Below are positions 1 to 5,896 of a DNA stretch of 5,896 nt, piece after piece; position 1 is the stretch's first letter; the number at the start of each line of letters is the position of its first letter. The DNA is taken from positions 1-5,896 of the forward strand of contig DNMS01000395.1 of the NCBI GenBank assembly GCA_003488105.1, in the 5' to 3' direction. Made by a program: the position numbers and the translations under genes. The notes beneath the pieces are model-generated. The model had not been told where the DNA came from, ran no database searches, and worked only from the letters and a program-made list of their open reading frames with translations. This stretch comes from Rhodospirillaceae bacterium. GTDB lineage: Bacteria; Pseudomonadota; Alphaproteobacteria; Rhodospirillales_A; Casp-alpha2.

Positions 1-130
1 AGTTGACGGCGAACAGCATGTGACCGTCACCGAACACCCCCCATTCGCGCACATCCAGGATCGCGACTTCCTCGCCGGACAAAATGCGGTCGCGGACGTC
101 CTCGGCTTCCAACAAAGTTACTTCGGTCAT
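1..130 (-). CDS. Rhodanese-like sulfurtransferase, N-terminal fragment (runs off the left edge)
   Basis: Reverse-strand reading from the ATG at 130-128 gives 43 residues before the window ends. They begin MTEVTLLEAEDVRDRILSG and continue to ILDVREWGVFGDGHMLFAVN. The pattern of a short helix, a hydrophobic strand ending in LDVRE (residues 25-29), then an aromatic, a GH pair (36-37) and AVN is the start of a rhodanese domain. Rhodaneses move sulfane sulfur through a persulfide on a catalytic cysteine. That cysteine would lie beyond this edge, so activity cannot be judged, nor whether this is a single- or multi-domain rhodanese. The start lies 6 nt past the leuD stop, so the gene is probably co-transcribed and perhaps translationally coupled with leuD. 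No strong Shine-Dalgarno sequence is visible. The family call is fairly firm from the motif; the substrate is unknown. Confidence 0.75.
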   Translation of the reverse strand, partial: MTEVTLLEAEDVRDRILSGEEVAILDVREWGVFGDGHMLFAVN

Positions 131-136
131 TCTTAC

Positions 137-634
137 TTAGCTCGCTTTCTTGAATTTCTTTTTCAGGTGCGGCATCAGGCCGCCGTCGGCGACGATCTGC
201 ATCAGGTGCGCCGGCACCGTGTCGCATTTGTAGGTTTCGCCCTTGGTCAGGTTGCGGACCTCGCCCTTTTCCATGTCGATCTCCAACTGATCGTCGGTCG
301 CGATCTTGTCGGTTTCGGCACAGACCAGGGCCGGCACGGCCAGATTGAAGCAGTTGCGGTAGAAGATGCGGGCGAAGGATTTCGCCAGGATCACGCGGAT
401 CCCGCAGGACCGCATGTATTGCGGCGCCCATTCGCGGGATGATCCGATGCCCAGGTTTTCGTCGGCGACGAAGACGTCGCCTTCCTTGCAGTTGGCGGAG
501 AAGGTCGGGTCGACGTCCTTCAGGCATTCGGTATAGGCCTCTTCCGGCTTTGCGCTGGTCAATGCCGAAATGGGGGCCAGCAGGTCGGTGTCGATATTGG
601 CCCCGAATTTCCAGGCCTTGCCTTTATGTATCAT
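137..634 (-). CDS. leuD: 3-isopropylmalate dehydratase / aconitase-family small subunit (LeuD-like)
   Basis: A 165-residue protein of the short LeuD/DmdB type (E. coli-type LeuD is about 200 residues). It is the swivelling domain that pairs with a separate Fe-S large subunit in hydro-lyases such as isopropylmalate isomerase or homoaconitase. Seen in the sequence: the N-terminal NIDTD motif (residues 13-17), the family signature GSSRE at 64-68, and the strand-helix AKSFARIFYRNCFN (84-97), all in the expected order. The canonical GSSREHAP reads GSSREWAP (W69 replaces His), and the residue before GSSRE is Ile where Cys is common. The stretch after NIDTD reads LLAPISALTSA instead of the usual QIIPARYL type, so the substrate may not be isopropylmalate. 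The ATG at 634 has a good AGAAGGA ribosome site. The gene follows the large-subunit gene by 17 nt and precedes a rhodanese gene by 6 nt, consistent with one operon. The family is sure; the leuD symbol follows the family name and does not assert the substrate. Confidence 0.88.
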   Translation of the reverse strand: MIHKGKAWKFGANIDTDLLAPISALTSAKPEEAYTECLKDVDPTFSANCKEGDVFVADENLGIGSSREWAPQYMRSCGIRVILAKSFARIFYRNCFNLAVPALVCAETDKIATDDQLEIDMEKGEVRNLTKGETYKCDTVPAHLMQIVADGGLMPHLKKKFKKAS

Positions 635-642
635 CTTGCAGG

Positions 643-649
643 TCCTTCT
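643..649 (-). promoter_or_regulatory. Ribosome binding site of leuD
   Basis: On the minus strand AGAAGGA lies about 8 nt before the ATG at 634, inside the 17-nt gap after the large-subunit stop codon. It is the clearest Shine-Dalgarno sequence in the minus-strand operon and fixes the leuD start. Confidence 0.7.
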
Positions 650-651
650 GA

Positions 652-1737
652 TCAGAGCATGTCACGGGGATCGGCGATCTGCCCGGCAACGGCGGATGCC
701 GCCACCGTATAGGGCGACGCCAGATAGAGCTTCGACGACTTGGGCCCGGCCCGACCGACGAAATTGCGGTTGGTCGACGAGATGCCCACGGCATCCTCGG
801 CCAAACGCGCGTCACCCAGCCCGATGCAGCCGCCGCAGCCGGACGGCAAAATAATGCCGCCCGCATCCTCGAGGATCTGAAGCGTGCCTTCGGCGGCGGC
901 CAGTTCGCGCATCTTGATGGTCGAGGGCGCGACCAGGAACCGCGTGCCGGCGGCGACCTTCTTGCCCTTCAGGACCTGGGCCGCCATGCGCATGTCTTCC
1001 AGCTTGGCGCCCGTGCAGGCGCCGAGATAGGCCTGATCCAGCTTGACGTTCGGGTAGTTGCCGACATCGTCGGCGTTTTCCGGGCTGGAGGGGGCCGCGA
1101 CCTGCGGCGCCAGGGTGTCGCCATTGACGGTGATGCGCTTGGCATAGACGGCATCGGCGTCGGACTGCCAGTCATCCGCATTCACGCCGCTGATACCCCA
1201 GGCCTTAAGCAGTTCCATGGTCTTGGCGTCGGGGGCGATGATGCCGGTCTTGGCGCCGATTTCGGCCGCCATGTTGGTCAGGGTCATGCGGTCCTGGGCG
1301 GACATCGCGGCAACGCCGTCACCACAAAATTCCACGACCTGATAGCCGAAGCCCATGATGCCATGATCGCCGCAGATTTTCAGGATCACGTCCTTGGCGG
1401 CGACGCCCGGATTCAACGCTCCGGTCACTTCCATGCGCACGTTTTCCGGCACACGGACCCAGATGTCGCCCGTCGCCATGACGCCGGTGATTTCCGTCGC
1501 CCCGACGCAGGCATGGCAACGTAAATGTTCCCCCTGCTCGTCAAGCAGGAACAGGGCACCGCCCTCGGCATTGACCGAATCCGTGATATGCCCGACGGCC
1601 TTGAGCAGGGCCGCGTCCAGGTCCCGAGACGCGGCGAAATCCTGCGACATTTCGGCCAACAGCTCCAGGTTGGCCTGGAACCGGCGGGCATCCTCCGCGG
1701 CGGCGTCGCGGATGTTCAGGGCTGGCGCATTAGACAT
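652..1737 (-). CDS. Chimeric gene: half GAF domain fused in frame to an N-terminally truncated LeuC-type dehydratase large subunit
   Basis: Read from the ATG at 1737 the product is 361 residues. A GTG at 1764 would add nine; neither start has a convincing ribosome site. Residues about 13-85 match the opening of a bacterial GAF sensor domain: a helical lead-in (RFQANLELLAEMSQDFAAS), DLDAALLKAV, then NAEGGALFLLDEQGEHLRCH. From about residue 79 it is the LeuC/aconitase large subunit: ATGDIWVRVPE, NPGVAAKDVIL, GAKTGI, LGACTGAKLEDMR, SGCGGCIG, TNRNFVGRAG and ASPYTVAASAVAG. The three Fe-S cysteines are present (C241, C301, C304). About the first 120-140 residues of a normal LeuC (420-470 aa) are missing, including the usual DHxxP and DSHT active-site motifs. 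The GAF domain is also cut at about half length. An active enzyme is therefore unlikely. I infer a deletion fusion of two genes or a chimeric assembly join. No frameshift or stop marks the join. Confidence 0.8.
   Translation of the reverse strand: MSNAPALNIRDAAAEDARRFQANLELLAEMSQDFAASRDLDAALLKAVGHITDSVNAEGGALFLLDEQGEHLRCHACVGATEITGVMATGDIWVRVPENVRMEVTGALNPGVAAKDVILKICGDHGIMGFGYQVVEFCGDGVAAMSAQDRMTLTNMAAEIGAKTGIIAPDAKTMELLKAWGISGVNADDWQSDADAVYAKRITVNGDTLAPQVAAPSSPENADDVGNYPNVKLDQAYLGACTGAKLEDMRMAAQVLKGKKVAAGTRFLVAPSTIKMRELAAAEGTLQILEDAGGIILPSGCGGCIGLGDARLAEDAVGISSTNRNFVGRAGPKSSKLYLASPYTVAASAVAGQIADPRDML
1483..1506 (-). other. Fusion junction between GAF-like and LeuC-like coding sequence
   Basis: The minus strand here encodes VGATEITG. 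Before it the protein follows the GAF pattern (LLDEQGEHLRCHAC); after it, VMATGDIWVRVPE follows LeuC. The eight junction residues fit either family, since GAF domains often read ...GxxxITG... after the second strand, and LeuC reads ...GVGATExxxVMATG... before its IWxRVPE motif. The exact breakpoint therefore cannot be placed more finely. A short stretch of shared sequence would explain how the two genes were joined in frame. Confidence 0.6.
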
Positions 1738-1814
1738 GCCGGAACTATGCCCGTATTCAATCACATCGGTAAATAGTCCGGTCGCATTTCAGCCCATTTT
1801 TGACGCAGAGAAGA

Positions 1815-3788
1815 TCAGGCCGCGCGCACCTGATCCAGGAACTCGGTAACATAACGGCGCAGCCGGTCGCCTTCCCGGTCGAGCGTATCGACGGATTTCA
1901 GCACTTCGGCGGCGGATTGTTCCGTTTCGGCCGCCGCCTGGGCGACCTGGGCCGTGCTGTCGCTGGCGCGGCGGGTGCCCGTGGTCGCCTCGTCCGTGTT
2001 GCGAGCGATTTCCTGGGTCGCTGCCGACTGTTGCTCGACCGCCGCGGAAATACCGGCGGCGATTTCGCACATACGATCAACGCTTTCGGAAATTTTGGCG
2101 ATCGCGCGCACCGTGTCGCCGGTTTCCGACTGAATATTGGTGACCTGCGCCGCAATTTCCTCGGTCGCCTTGGCAGTTTGATTGGCCAAGTTCTTGACCT
2201 CGCTGGCGACCACGGCAAAGCCCTTGCCGGCGTCACCGGCGCGGGCCGCCTCGATGGTGGCGTTGAGGGCCAGCAGGTTGGTCTGTTCGGCGATATCGGT
2301 GATCAGTTGGATGACTTCGCCGATCTTCAGCGCCGCGTCGTTAAGGCGCCGGACCCGCTCGTCGGTCTTGCGCGCCTGATCGGCCGCCGCTTCGGACACT
2401 TGGCTCGACGTCGCCGCCTGCTCGGCGATTTCGGTGATCGACTTGCTCAGCTCATCCGCCGCCGTGGCCACGGTCTGCACGCTTTCCGCCGCCGTTTCCG
2501 AGGCCTGGGTGACCAACTTGGTCTGATCGGCGGTCTGCCGGGCAACCCCAGACATCTGCTCCGACGTCCCCCGCATTTCCCGGGTTGCGGTGCTCACGTT
2601 GTCGAGCGATCCGGACACCTGGGCATCGAACTCCTTGGCCATGGCCTCGATCTTCTGGACCCGCGCCTCGCGGGCCGCGCGCTCGGCCCGCCGCTCCTCC
2701 GCCTGTTGCTCGGCCGCAATCAGGCTGTCCTTGAAAACCTGGACCGCCTGCGCCATTTCGCCGATCTCGTCCGTGCGGTGAACATCGGACACCTCCACAT
2801 CCGTGTCGTTGCCCGCCAGACGCGACATGATCGCGACGTTCCGCCCCAGGGGCCGGGTGATCAGCCTGACGACCAGCACGCTGATGGCGACCGCGCCGAA
2901 CAGGGACGACAGAACCACCGCCGTGATCAACAGGCGCCGCGCCGAGCGTTCCTCGTCGGCGGTTCGGGCCTCTTGCCGGGCGCGCTCTTCCTCACCGGCC
3001 TTGCGTTGCGCGTCCAGTTCCGCCAAACGGGCCTGAAACTGTCGGTCCTGTTCGGCGGACTGTTCCGACAGCTTGGCCGCATAGGACGCGGCCAGTTCAC
3101 GGGCCTCGGTCTTCATCGGGGTCAGGCGGTCCTGAAGAATGACTTCGATCAGCCCGAAACGCTCCGCCGTCGGGCCGATGAGGGCCGCGATGCGGATCAG
3201 GCCGGCCTCCCGGTCGATGGCCAGCAAGGGGGTTTCGACGCCAAGATTGTCGCCGATCACGTTTTCGAACGTCTTGACCCGCGCGGGCGCGAACCCTTCC
3301 GTATCGGCAAGATCCGTCAAGCCGTCGAGATCGCTGATCGGATAGAACCCGATCGAATTGGCGCCCTCAAGCACCGTCAGAAACACCGAGCCGTCAAGAA
3401 TGAAGAATTCCCGGTCGGATTTGCTCATAGGGGACAGGATCGATTCCAACTGCGAAGCGACGATGCGCAAGGCGCCCTGATAGTAGCCCTGCAGCTCCGC
3501 CTCGCGGACGGCGATCTGCTGCTGGCGCTGGGCCAGTTCCTTGGCATTCTCGGCGGTAATCACCGCACGGTCGCGGGCCTGCCCCGCCTTCAGCCGCTCG
3601 ACATGCGCAGATTGCAGGGCGGCGCTTTCGCGGCTCAGAAGTGTGTCGACCTCGCCGATGATCGTGCTCAGTCGGTCAAGGCTGCGCGAGCTCATGATGA
3701 TGGTCACGATCCCCGCGATGGCGAACAGAAGCACAGTCGCCCCGAAGAACTTCGTGCTCAGTTTCTTGAAGTCGATCAGCTTGGTCAT
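1815..3788 (-). CDS. Methyl-accepting chemotaxis protein (transmembrane chemoreceptor with HAMP domain)
   Basis: A 657-residue inner-membrane chemoreceptor that would control the CheA kinase through CheW. Visible parts in order: a short basic N-terminus; transmembrane helix 1 (about 14-33, [19 protein letters not shown]); a periplasmic sensor of about 250 residues (34-285); transmembrane helix 2 (about 286-308, [20 protein letters not shown]); a HAMP domain (about 309-361, with [17 protein letters not shown] and [14 protein letters not shown]); and a long helical signalling domain (about 400-640). The kinase-contact hairpin tip [20 protein letters not shown] is at 501-520 and closely matches the family consensus. 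There is no C-terminal NWETF-like tether for CheR/CheB. The periplasmic region ends in a charged helix (about 225-285) leading straight into helix 2; I do not recognise its ligand-binding fold. The ATG at 3788 is preceded by GGGGG at a short 4-nt spacing. It diverges from an EAL-GGDEF gene and lies upstream of the GAF/LeuC chimera on the same strand. Confidence 0.95.
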
Positions 3789-3870
3789 TGAGCCCCCGAT
3801 GAATGCAAATACAGCCCCCCACCATGTGATGTAACGGCGTGGGCTGCCCCCTTCGATATGAATACAATCT

Positions 3871-3898
3871 ATAATATGTGAATGTTTTTTCGGCGCAA
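3871..3898 (-). promoter_or_regulatory. Candidate sigma-70 promoter of the chemoreceptor gene
   Basis: On the minus strand TTGCGC (3898-3893) and TATTAT (3876-3871) are separated by 16 bp in the only AT-rich patch of the intergenic region. Transcription would start near 3864, giving a leader of roughly 75 nt. The -10 is good; the -35 matches only at TTG. Position and composition support it, but no experimental evidence is available. Confidence 0.35.
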
Positions 3899-4012
3899 CG
3901 CCGCATTCCCCTCCTCCGGCGCCGACGACACGGCCATTGCGGCAACGCGGGCCGTCTTCAATCCATGAACGGCAGATGAAGTTTTGATTTCACGTGATGA
4001 TTGCCGTGGACA

Positions 4013-4052
4013 TTTCCCGACCTATGTCGAAAATTGTCGACAAATCGGGAGA
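4013..4052. repeat. Nested palindrome and direct repeat upstream of the EAL-GGDEF gene (possible operator)
   Basis: The outer arms TCCCGA (4015-4020) and TCGGGA (4045-4050) form an inverted repeat. Inside it, TGTCGA occurs twice (4025-4030 and 4035-4040), exactly 10 bp apart, one helical turn. The second copy is part of a perfect 10-bp palindrome TTGTCGACAA (4034-4043). The element ends about 55 bp before the ATG at 4107. Such symmetry at one-turn spacing fits a transcription-factor site; the factor is unknown. The element could also form a stem in the mRNA leader if transcription begins upstream of it. Confidence 0.4.
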
Positions 4053-4106
4053 TATTCAACCACATCCCGCCCGAACATCATGGGCCGTCAACCAACCGGA
4101 AGCGCC

Positions 4107-5896
4107 ATGAACCCCGCCGACCCCGCCATCGCCGTCCCCACCGCCGAACTCCGCCGCGCCGCCAACGATCCCACCATCCGGTTTCTAACCTGGGCGCGGG
4201 AGGAGGTCCGGTTCGCCTTTAAGCCGATCATCGACCCCTATACGGGGCACCTCTACGGTGTCGAAGCCCTAATGCGTGGGCAGGAGGATCTGGACTTCGC
4301 GTCGATCCACGCCTTTTTCGACTTTTCCTTCCGCATGGGTATTCTGCAGGAGGTCGAGGTCCTGCTGCGCGGGCGCGCCATGAAACAGTTTTCGACGCTC
4401 GACCTGGGACCGTCCGTGCGCCTGTTCCTGAACATCGACAACCGCGTGCTGCTGACCGACGACCACCGCGCCATCGATACGGTCGAGGCCGCCCGGGCCG
4501 CGAACCTCGCACCGTCGCGCGTGACGCTGGAAGTATCCGAACGCCATCAAGTCGACCGCGACGTCTCCAGCACCGAAACCCTGGCGCAAATCTACCGGCG
4601 CCGGCAGTTCCGCATCGCCATCGACGATTTCGGGACCGGCTTCGCGGGGCTGAAGCTGCTCTACGATCAGAACCCCGATTACATCAAGATAGACCGCTTC
4701 TTCATTTCCGGGATCGAGTCCGACCGCATGAAGAAGCTGTTCGTGTCGCAGATCGTCAGCCTGGCCCAGACCCTGGGCATCACGGTGATCGCCGAGGGGG
4801 TGGAGACGGAAAAGGAGTTGCTGACTTGCAAGGAGATGGGCTGCAACCTGATCCAGGGCTATTTCATCGAACGGCCGCTGATCATGGGTGCCGACCTGCG
4901 GGGCACCTATCCCCGCGTGCGCGACCTACGTAAGGGCGAAACGGACCGCCGCTTCATCGACCAGGAATTGTCCATGCCGGCCCCCATCCGCAGCACCAGC
5001 GACATCATGGCGACCTTCGAACATTTCCGCAAAAACAAGAACATGACTTTCTTTCCCGTGGTCGACGACATGGAGGAACCGCTGGGCATCATCCGCGAGG
5101 AAGACCTAAAGGATTTTACCTATTCGCGTTACGGCAAGGACCTGCTGGCCAACGTGTCCTACAAACGCCACCTCAACGAATTCATCCGCCCCTGCCCCGT
5201 GGCCGACATTCACGACAATGCGGAACGGGTGCTGGAGAAATATTCCCTGTCCGGCACCCAGGAAGGGATCATCGTGGTCGAGAACCTGCGTTACGTGGGT
5301 TTCCTGACCGCCGCGTCGCTGCTTCAGGTCGTCAACGAAAAGCATCTGGCCATGGCGCGCGACGCCAACCCTTTAAGCAAGCTTCCGGGCAACCACATGG
5401 TCGTCGAATACGTGACAGACCTGGTCGGCGACGACGCCACGGAAGCGGTCATCGCCTATTTCGATTTCGACAACTTCAAGCCGTTCAACGACACCTACGG
5501 GTTCCGTCAGGGCGACCGCGCGATCCTGCTGTTCGCGGAGTTGCTGAAGAAATCCTTCATCGTTGACGGAGCCTTCCTGGGCCATATCGGCGGTGATGAT
5601 TTCTTCGCCGGCTGGCGCGGCATCGGCCTGGACCAGGCGCGGGAACGCCTTGCGGACCTGCGCGAGTCGTTCCGCCATCAAGTCGAAACCTTTTACGACA
5701 AGAACGCTCGCGACGCCGGCGGCATCGTCGCCAAAGACCGCGGCGGCGTCGAGCGAACCTTCCCCCTGCTCACCGTGTCGATCGCCGTTATGCATCTGAA
5801 ACCGGGCCGCGCCGGCATCACACCCGACGACCTGGCACAGCAGATCGCGGTCACGAAGAAGGAATCGAAACACGCCGACGACGGGATCGCCGTCGG
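4107..5896 (+). CDS. EAL-CBS-CBS-GGDEF cyclic-di-GMP signalling protein, C-terminus beyond the right edge
   Basis: Open for 596 codons with no stop before the window ends. EAL phosphodiesterase domain (about 25-265): EALMR (53-57), LNID with N109, LEVSE with E142, DDFGTG (173-178), KID (194-196), AEGVE (229-233) and QGYF (250-253). All canonical metal and catalytic positions are present, so it should cleave c-di-GMP. A CBS pair (about 288-410) follows, with PVVDDMEEPLGIIREEDL and GIIVVENLRYVGFLTAASLL; CBS pairs often bind adenine nucleotides. The GGDEF domain (about 418 on) has LPGN (426-429), FDFDNFKPFNDTYGF and signature GGDDF (495-499). This replaces the fourth-position Glu with Asp, and there is no upstream RxxD inhibitory site, so cyclase activity is uncertain. 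No membrane segment is seen, so it is probably cytoplasmic. GGAAG 4 nt before the ATG at 4107 supports that start. An in-frame ATG at 4080 lacks a ribosome site. Confidence 0.93.
   Translation, partial: MNPADPAIAVPTAELRRAANDPTIRFLTWAREEVRFAFKPIIDPYTGHLYGVEALMRGQEDLDFASIHAFFDFSFRMGILQEVEVLLRGRAMKQFSTLDLGPSVRLFLNIDNRVLLTDDHRAIDTVEAARAANLAPSRVTLEVSERHQVDRDVSSTETLAQIYRRRQFRIAIDDFGTGFAGLKLLYDQNPDYIKIDRFFISGIESDRMKKLFVSQIVSLAQTLGITVIAEGVETEKELLTCKEMGCNLIQGYFIERPLIMGADLRGTYPRVRDLRKGETDRRFIDQELSMPAPIRSTSDIMATFEHFRKNKNMTFFPVVDDMEEPLGIIREEDLKDFTYSRYGKDLLANVSYKRHLNEFIRPCPVADIHDNAERVLEKYSLSGTQEGIIVVENLRYVGFLTAASLLQVVNEKHLAMARDANPLSKLPGNHMVVEYVTDLVGDDATEAVIAYFDFDNFKPFNDTYGFRQGDRAILLFAELLKKSFIVDGAFLGHIGGDDFFAGWRGIGLDQARERLADLRESFRHQVETFYDKNARDAGGIVAKDRGGVERTFPLLTVSIAVMHLKPGRAGITPDDLAQQIAVTKKESKHADDGIAV

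Follow-up and report, generated by a model that had tools for sequence, protein, structure and literature searches.

We identified an open reading frame that appears to be a technical chimera of two ordinary, distant genes. It lies in a stretch of 5,896 nucleotides (the window) from a Rhodospirillaceae bacterium, and on the minus strand, 1764..652, it runs without interruption from the start of a GAF-domain protein to the end of a large subunit of the aconitase/3-isopropylmalate dehydratase (IPMI) family. We put the probability that the fusion arose during assembly or library construction at roughly 80%; this figure, like our ranking of the alternatives, is a judgement, not a computed value. 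The fused frame is probably not a new protein. In relatives, the two parent genes are uninterrupted, they share a short word, the join lies on this word, and nothing in the relatives that we searched matches across the join. From these observations we infer that the join is technical and is not a real break in the chromosome. An initial annotation, made from the sequence alone, had already described an in-frame join of GAF and LeuC with an open frame, although it gave no strand. It also considered a chimera or an accidental fusion to be likelier than a new regulated enzyme, and we agree, since the word at the join occurs in two genes that are uninterrupted and far apart, and since no match in 48 genomes of the family crosses the join.

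The features of the window are:

137..634, minus strand: intact small subunit gene (LeuD/DmdB family; TIGR02087), 165 amino acids, adjoining the large subunit gene.
652..1764, minus strand: putative chimeric ORF, 370 amino acids from the GTG at 1764; the likely start is the ATG at 1737 and the stop is at 652.
652..1482, minus strand: 3' two thirds of the gene for an aconitase/IPMI-family large subunit (hacA/IPMI_arch type); the parent in L005 has 420 amino acids.
1483..1508, minus strand: 26-bp word common to both parent genes (encoding VGATEITG); the join site, where the collinear alignments overlap.
1509..1764, minus strand: 5' part of the gene for a GAF-SpoIIE-HATPase_c_2 phosphatase, ending after roughly the first third of the GAF domain; matches L016 and L020.
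1815..3788, minus strand: methyl-accepting chemotaxis protein (MCPsignal and HAMP), adjoining the GAF gene; collinear in L035, L037, and L020.
3984..5896, plus strand: EAL-CBS-GGDEF protein on the GAF side, running past the edge of the window; collinear in L016, L035, and L037.

Counted from the ATG at 1737, the ORF has 361 amino acids. Rfam gave no matches in the window at gathering scores.

The large-subunit part of the ORF (residues ~86 to 370) is 94–95% identical to proteins from the relatives G001, G002, G034, and G035, which places it in the aconitase/3-isopropylmalate dehydratase large subunit family. The ORF differs from the family in that the first third is absent, as the initial annotation had recognized: residues 86–367 match positions 136–415 of the 415 positions of the NF001614 profile. 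The ORF also scores below the cut-offs of three family models (NF001614, 337.9 vs. 385 bits; TIGR01343, or hacA_fam, 306.9 vs. 385.7; and TIGR02086, or IPMI_arch, 271 vs. 410.15), whereas the intact large subunit of L005 passes all three, with 503.3 bits for NF001614. The intact protein is not a canonical LeuC (TIGR00170, 247.4 vs. a cut-off of 560.25). The part that was first called LeuC-type is of the hacA/IPMI_arch type. By E-value, the closest solved structures to the intact protein are 4nqy and 4kp1, the large subunit of isopropylmalate/citramalate isomerase.

The fused ORF keeps the cysteines of GACTG (from residue 248) and SGCGGCIG (from residue 308), which we take to be the three Fe-S cysteines of the large subunit. 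It has neither the DSH motif nor the ADHYV stretch, both of which are found in L005 (as GADSHS and ADHYV). Its sole DH, at residue 133 in CGDHGIM, is not at the place of ADHYV. The DHxxP-type and DSH motifs of the N-terminal third presumably form the active site of the large subunit. This pattern, with the cysteines kept and the N-terminal motifs gone, had been reported correctly, as had the intact leuD beside the fusion. The small subunit gene scores 156.3 bits against TIGR02087 (cut-off 108.95) and is collinear in L005, L006, L034, and L036.

Residues 1–94 of the ORF match the N terminus of a GAF-SpoIIE-HATPase_c_2 phosphatase, a type that we take to be RsbU-like. The intact parent (599 amino acids from a GTG in L016) has Pfam matches to GAF at residues 48–186, SpoIIE at 248–437, and HATPase_c_2 at 466–590. 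Unlike such proteins, the window lacks most of the GAF domain and all of the SpoIIE and HATPase domains. Because the join is at ORF residues 86–94, about a third of the GAF domain is kept, instead of the half that was first suggested. Pfam gives no match to the 94-amino-acid piece (window 1483–1764) by itself at E ≤ 0.01, and no GAF match to the whole fused ORF at E ≤ 1. We assign this piece to GAF because residues 1–100 match L016 and L020, at 93% and 89% identity.

Each side of the join is collinear with a separate locus in the relatives. Aligning the window with leuC-leuD loci of relatives, a check that the initial annotation proposed, showed that window 1–1508 is collinear with these loci. 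Positions 1–1508 align without gaps to the leuCD loci of G002 (L006, 93.3% identity), G035 (L034, 93.2%), and G034 (L036, 90.0%), and positions 4–1506 align without gaps to that of G001 (L005, 92.9%). On the other side, positions 1483–5896 form a single alignment with the GAF loci of G035 (L035, 89.2%) and G034 (L037, 86.2%). The GAF locus of G001 (L016) matches in two pieces, 1483–1800 and 3958–5896, and the GAF locus of G002 (L020) matches 1483–3812 only. The alignments of the two sides overlap on 26 bp, 1483–1508 (24 bp, 1483–1506, with L005). The join had been placed at about 1483–1506; the location is right, but the join can be resolved only to the 26-bp word. As a test for a contig chimera, then, both sides are collinear with separate loci and they overlap on a shared word.

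When the coding strands are compared, both parents encode VGATEITG at the overlap, in the same frame. Since the phase of the word is identical in the two, the frame stays open across the join, and this openness is not evidence of a real fusion. The shared word explains both the place of the join and the open frame, so no selection for the fusion is required. Three relatives (G002, G034, and G004) have an exact copy of the 26-bp word in the large-subunit gene, and the copies in the GAF gene of two (G001 and G035) have a single mismatch. In five of the eight relatives (G001, G003, G004, G005, and G035), the longest exact word that the two genes have in common, of 13–17 bp, is at the join spot. 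It lies elsewhere in the other three (G002, G034, and G006), which counts against a chimera. The two genes of G001 share exactly 17 bp at the join spot. If one break position were drawn at random in each of the G001 frames (1284 and 1821 bases long), we calculate that both would land in a 17-bp word of this kind about 8 times per million. In the species of the window, we would expect the two genes, including the GAF parent, to agree over all 26 bp, but the word that they share may be shorter.

We propose that two distant loci, either from one Rhodospirillales-type species or from two congeneric species in the same sample, were joined at a 26-bp word that occurs by chance in both genes. The joining could have been done by the assembler or could have occurred in library or amplification chemistry. 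With VGATEITG in the same frame of both proteins, such a chimera would stay open automatically. PMC7299287 describes assembly graphs linked by shared k-mers as a cause of chimeric contigs between related genomes. Our case is similar in that two loci are joined on a short shared word, and it differs from the cases in that paper in that the loci may come from a single genome or from two. To compare with a two-species origin, we considered the nearest relative of each segment: G035, G002, and G001 for the left side (93%), G001 for the GAF part (94%), G035 for the chemotaxis gene (90%), and G034 for the EAL gene (92%). The nearest relatives disagree even among segments from one side of the join. 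An argument against a chimera is that a 26-bp word confuses assembly only if k is small; an assembler that finishes at large k should be able to keep the two loci apart.

In all eight relatives, the parent genes are separate and neither is interrupted, with stop-to-stop frames of 427–567 and 600–647 amino acids. In G035, which is a single contig of 3,933,246 bp, the GAF match begins at 981,048 on the plus strand and leuC is at 2,377,201–2,378,058 on the minus strand, 1.40 Mb away. In G034, a single contig of 3,983,048 bp, the GAF match begins at 418,817 on the minus strand and leuC is at 3,086,216–3,087,070 on the plus strand. The distance along this contig is 2.67 Mb, or 1.32 Mb the short way if we assume that it is circular. 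With more than 1 Mb between the two genes and one gene on each strand, in G034 as in G035, a simple deletion cannot make the join, while an inversion can.

A deletion fusion had been offered in the initial annotation. The shared word, as direct copies, could mediate a deletion that fused the two genes, and the frame is open. But this would need another gene order than that of the two single-contig relatives, and much of the chromosome would be lost. We consider it highly improbable.

The main alternative that we considered is a real inversion of at least a megabase that disrupted both genes through inverted copies of the word. One end would then read GAF'-'leuC, as in the window, and the other end would carry the reciprocal leuC'-'GAF; the chimeric protein would be a by-product with no function. 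The opposite strands of the two genes in G035 and G034 are the geometry that would give this join. Furthermore, the minimal segment for RecBCD-dependent recombination repair in Escherichia coli is quoted as 23–27 bp in PMC5378121; the 26-bp word is within this range, so a real event is possible. The LeuC part also carries somewhat more private residue changes than its relatives do: where the five sequences show exactly two states at a site, it has 6, versus 2, 0, 2, and 3 in G001, G002, G035, and G034. One of these changes is at a site that is invariant in all 120 of the homologues listed (among 6247 matched). The private changes are a weak hint of relaxed constraint. The length of the word, the orientation of the loci, and these changes all count against a technical chimera.

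However, an inversion would break two genes that are uninterrupted in eight of eight relatives, and no match crosses the join in the 48 genomes of the family (with up to 17 candidates scored per genome). Also, the codon differences from these relatives are mostly synonymous in both halves (against G001, 37 synonymous and 14 nonsynonymous in the LeuC part, 15 and 1 in the GAF part), so any real break would be recent. Overall, an inversion seems unlikely. The fuller scenario, in which a megabase-scale inversion at a coincidental coding repeat of 26 bp broke two conserved genes in a wild lineage and made an expressed chimeric protein, is slightly less likely again. If it were true, a chance peptide match would have acted as a rearrangement point in a wild lineage.

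The searches of the family genomes point to a technical chimera. The fused protein has matches in all 48 genomes. Among the matches listed, the ones that start ahead of residue 80 and extend into the LeuC part (in G003, G004, G007, and G041) belong to frames of 421–429 amino acids, which is the length of the large subunit; the sequence check of these frames covered G003 and G004. A probe of 144 bases centered on the join has matches in 22 of the 48 genomes and never matched across the join among the candidates scored. Each match either ends no later than base 103 or begins no earlier than base 60, and the longest covers 103 of the 144 bases.

Beyond the family, the best protein matches to the fused ORF cover 77% of the query at 95–96% identity. 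The GAF part is absent from the 120 proteins listed of 6247 matched in a set of 5.8 billion; the best E-value for this part is 0.53. The DSH motif is kept in 114 of these 120 homologues, and the other six, of 264–293 amino acids, have their start in the region of the word or beyond it. Two proteins, P0001 (287 amino acids) and P0002 (305 amino acids, partial), begin near the word, and we considered whether contig ends near the word were assembly breaks. We rejected this: the start of P0001 reads as a gene-caller effect, as the more distant P0061 and P0101 also begin at the equivalent internal methionine. The 45-mer at the junction has no matches in viral_contigs. Of 55 records matched in a plasmid collection, the 20 that were listed all match only inside the chemotaxis gene (query 2099–2337). 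And in the literature that we searched, no paper mentions a GAF domain, isopropylmalate dehydratase, and a fusion protein together.

A GAF-regulated dehydratase that is maintained by selection would be consistent with the open frame and the remaining cysteines, and with nothing else that we found. Both of its domains are incomplete, with about a third of GAF and with no DSH motif or ADHYV stretch; the shared peptide accounts for the open frame; and no second example was found among the 48 family genomes, the 120 proteins listed of 6247, or viral_contigs. Selection for such a protein is extremely improbable, and a working GAF-LeuC enzyme is very unlikely. If the fusion is a technical chimera, as we believe, then it is a worked example of how a chance match between unrelated genes, at VGATEITG, leads to an in-frame and plausible-looking fusion gene. 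The record should stay out of listings as a GAF-LeuC architecture.

The suggestion that the strain would lack this isomerase is not supported, because the broken gene is a 420-amino-acid paralogue and because a separate canonical LeuC is above the TIGR00170 cut-off in seven of the eight relatives. In the eighth, G006, canonical LeuC appears as two partial, sub-threshold matches on different contigs. Judging from the sequences of these relatives, the window's own species probably keeps a canonical LeuC.

We also noticed some variation in gene content on the GAF side. In G001, the chemotaxis gene is absent beside the GAF-phosphatase gene, with 32 bp instead. The EAL-CBS-GGDEF gene has no match in the stretch of G002 that was compared. 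G034 and G035 have both genes. The chemotaxis gene is more divergent (81–90% identity) than its neighbors are (88–94%).

On the other side, downstream of the LeuCD-like pair in L005, a protein with four rhodanese-like stretches (7377–8984) is encoded between this pair and a gene of the isocitrate/isopropylmalate dehydrogenase family. Our guess is that this dehydratase has a sulfur-related role. Finally, L009, from a record titled Mesoflavibacter sp. isolate ih5 (CP051228.1), has a large-subunit gene that is 54% identical to the window's. Of the 21 loci that the same search gave, 13 are alphaproteobacterial, judging from the names in their titles, and the taxon label of CP051228.1 may be wrong.
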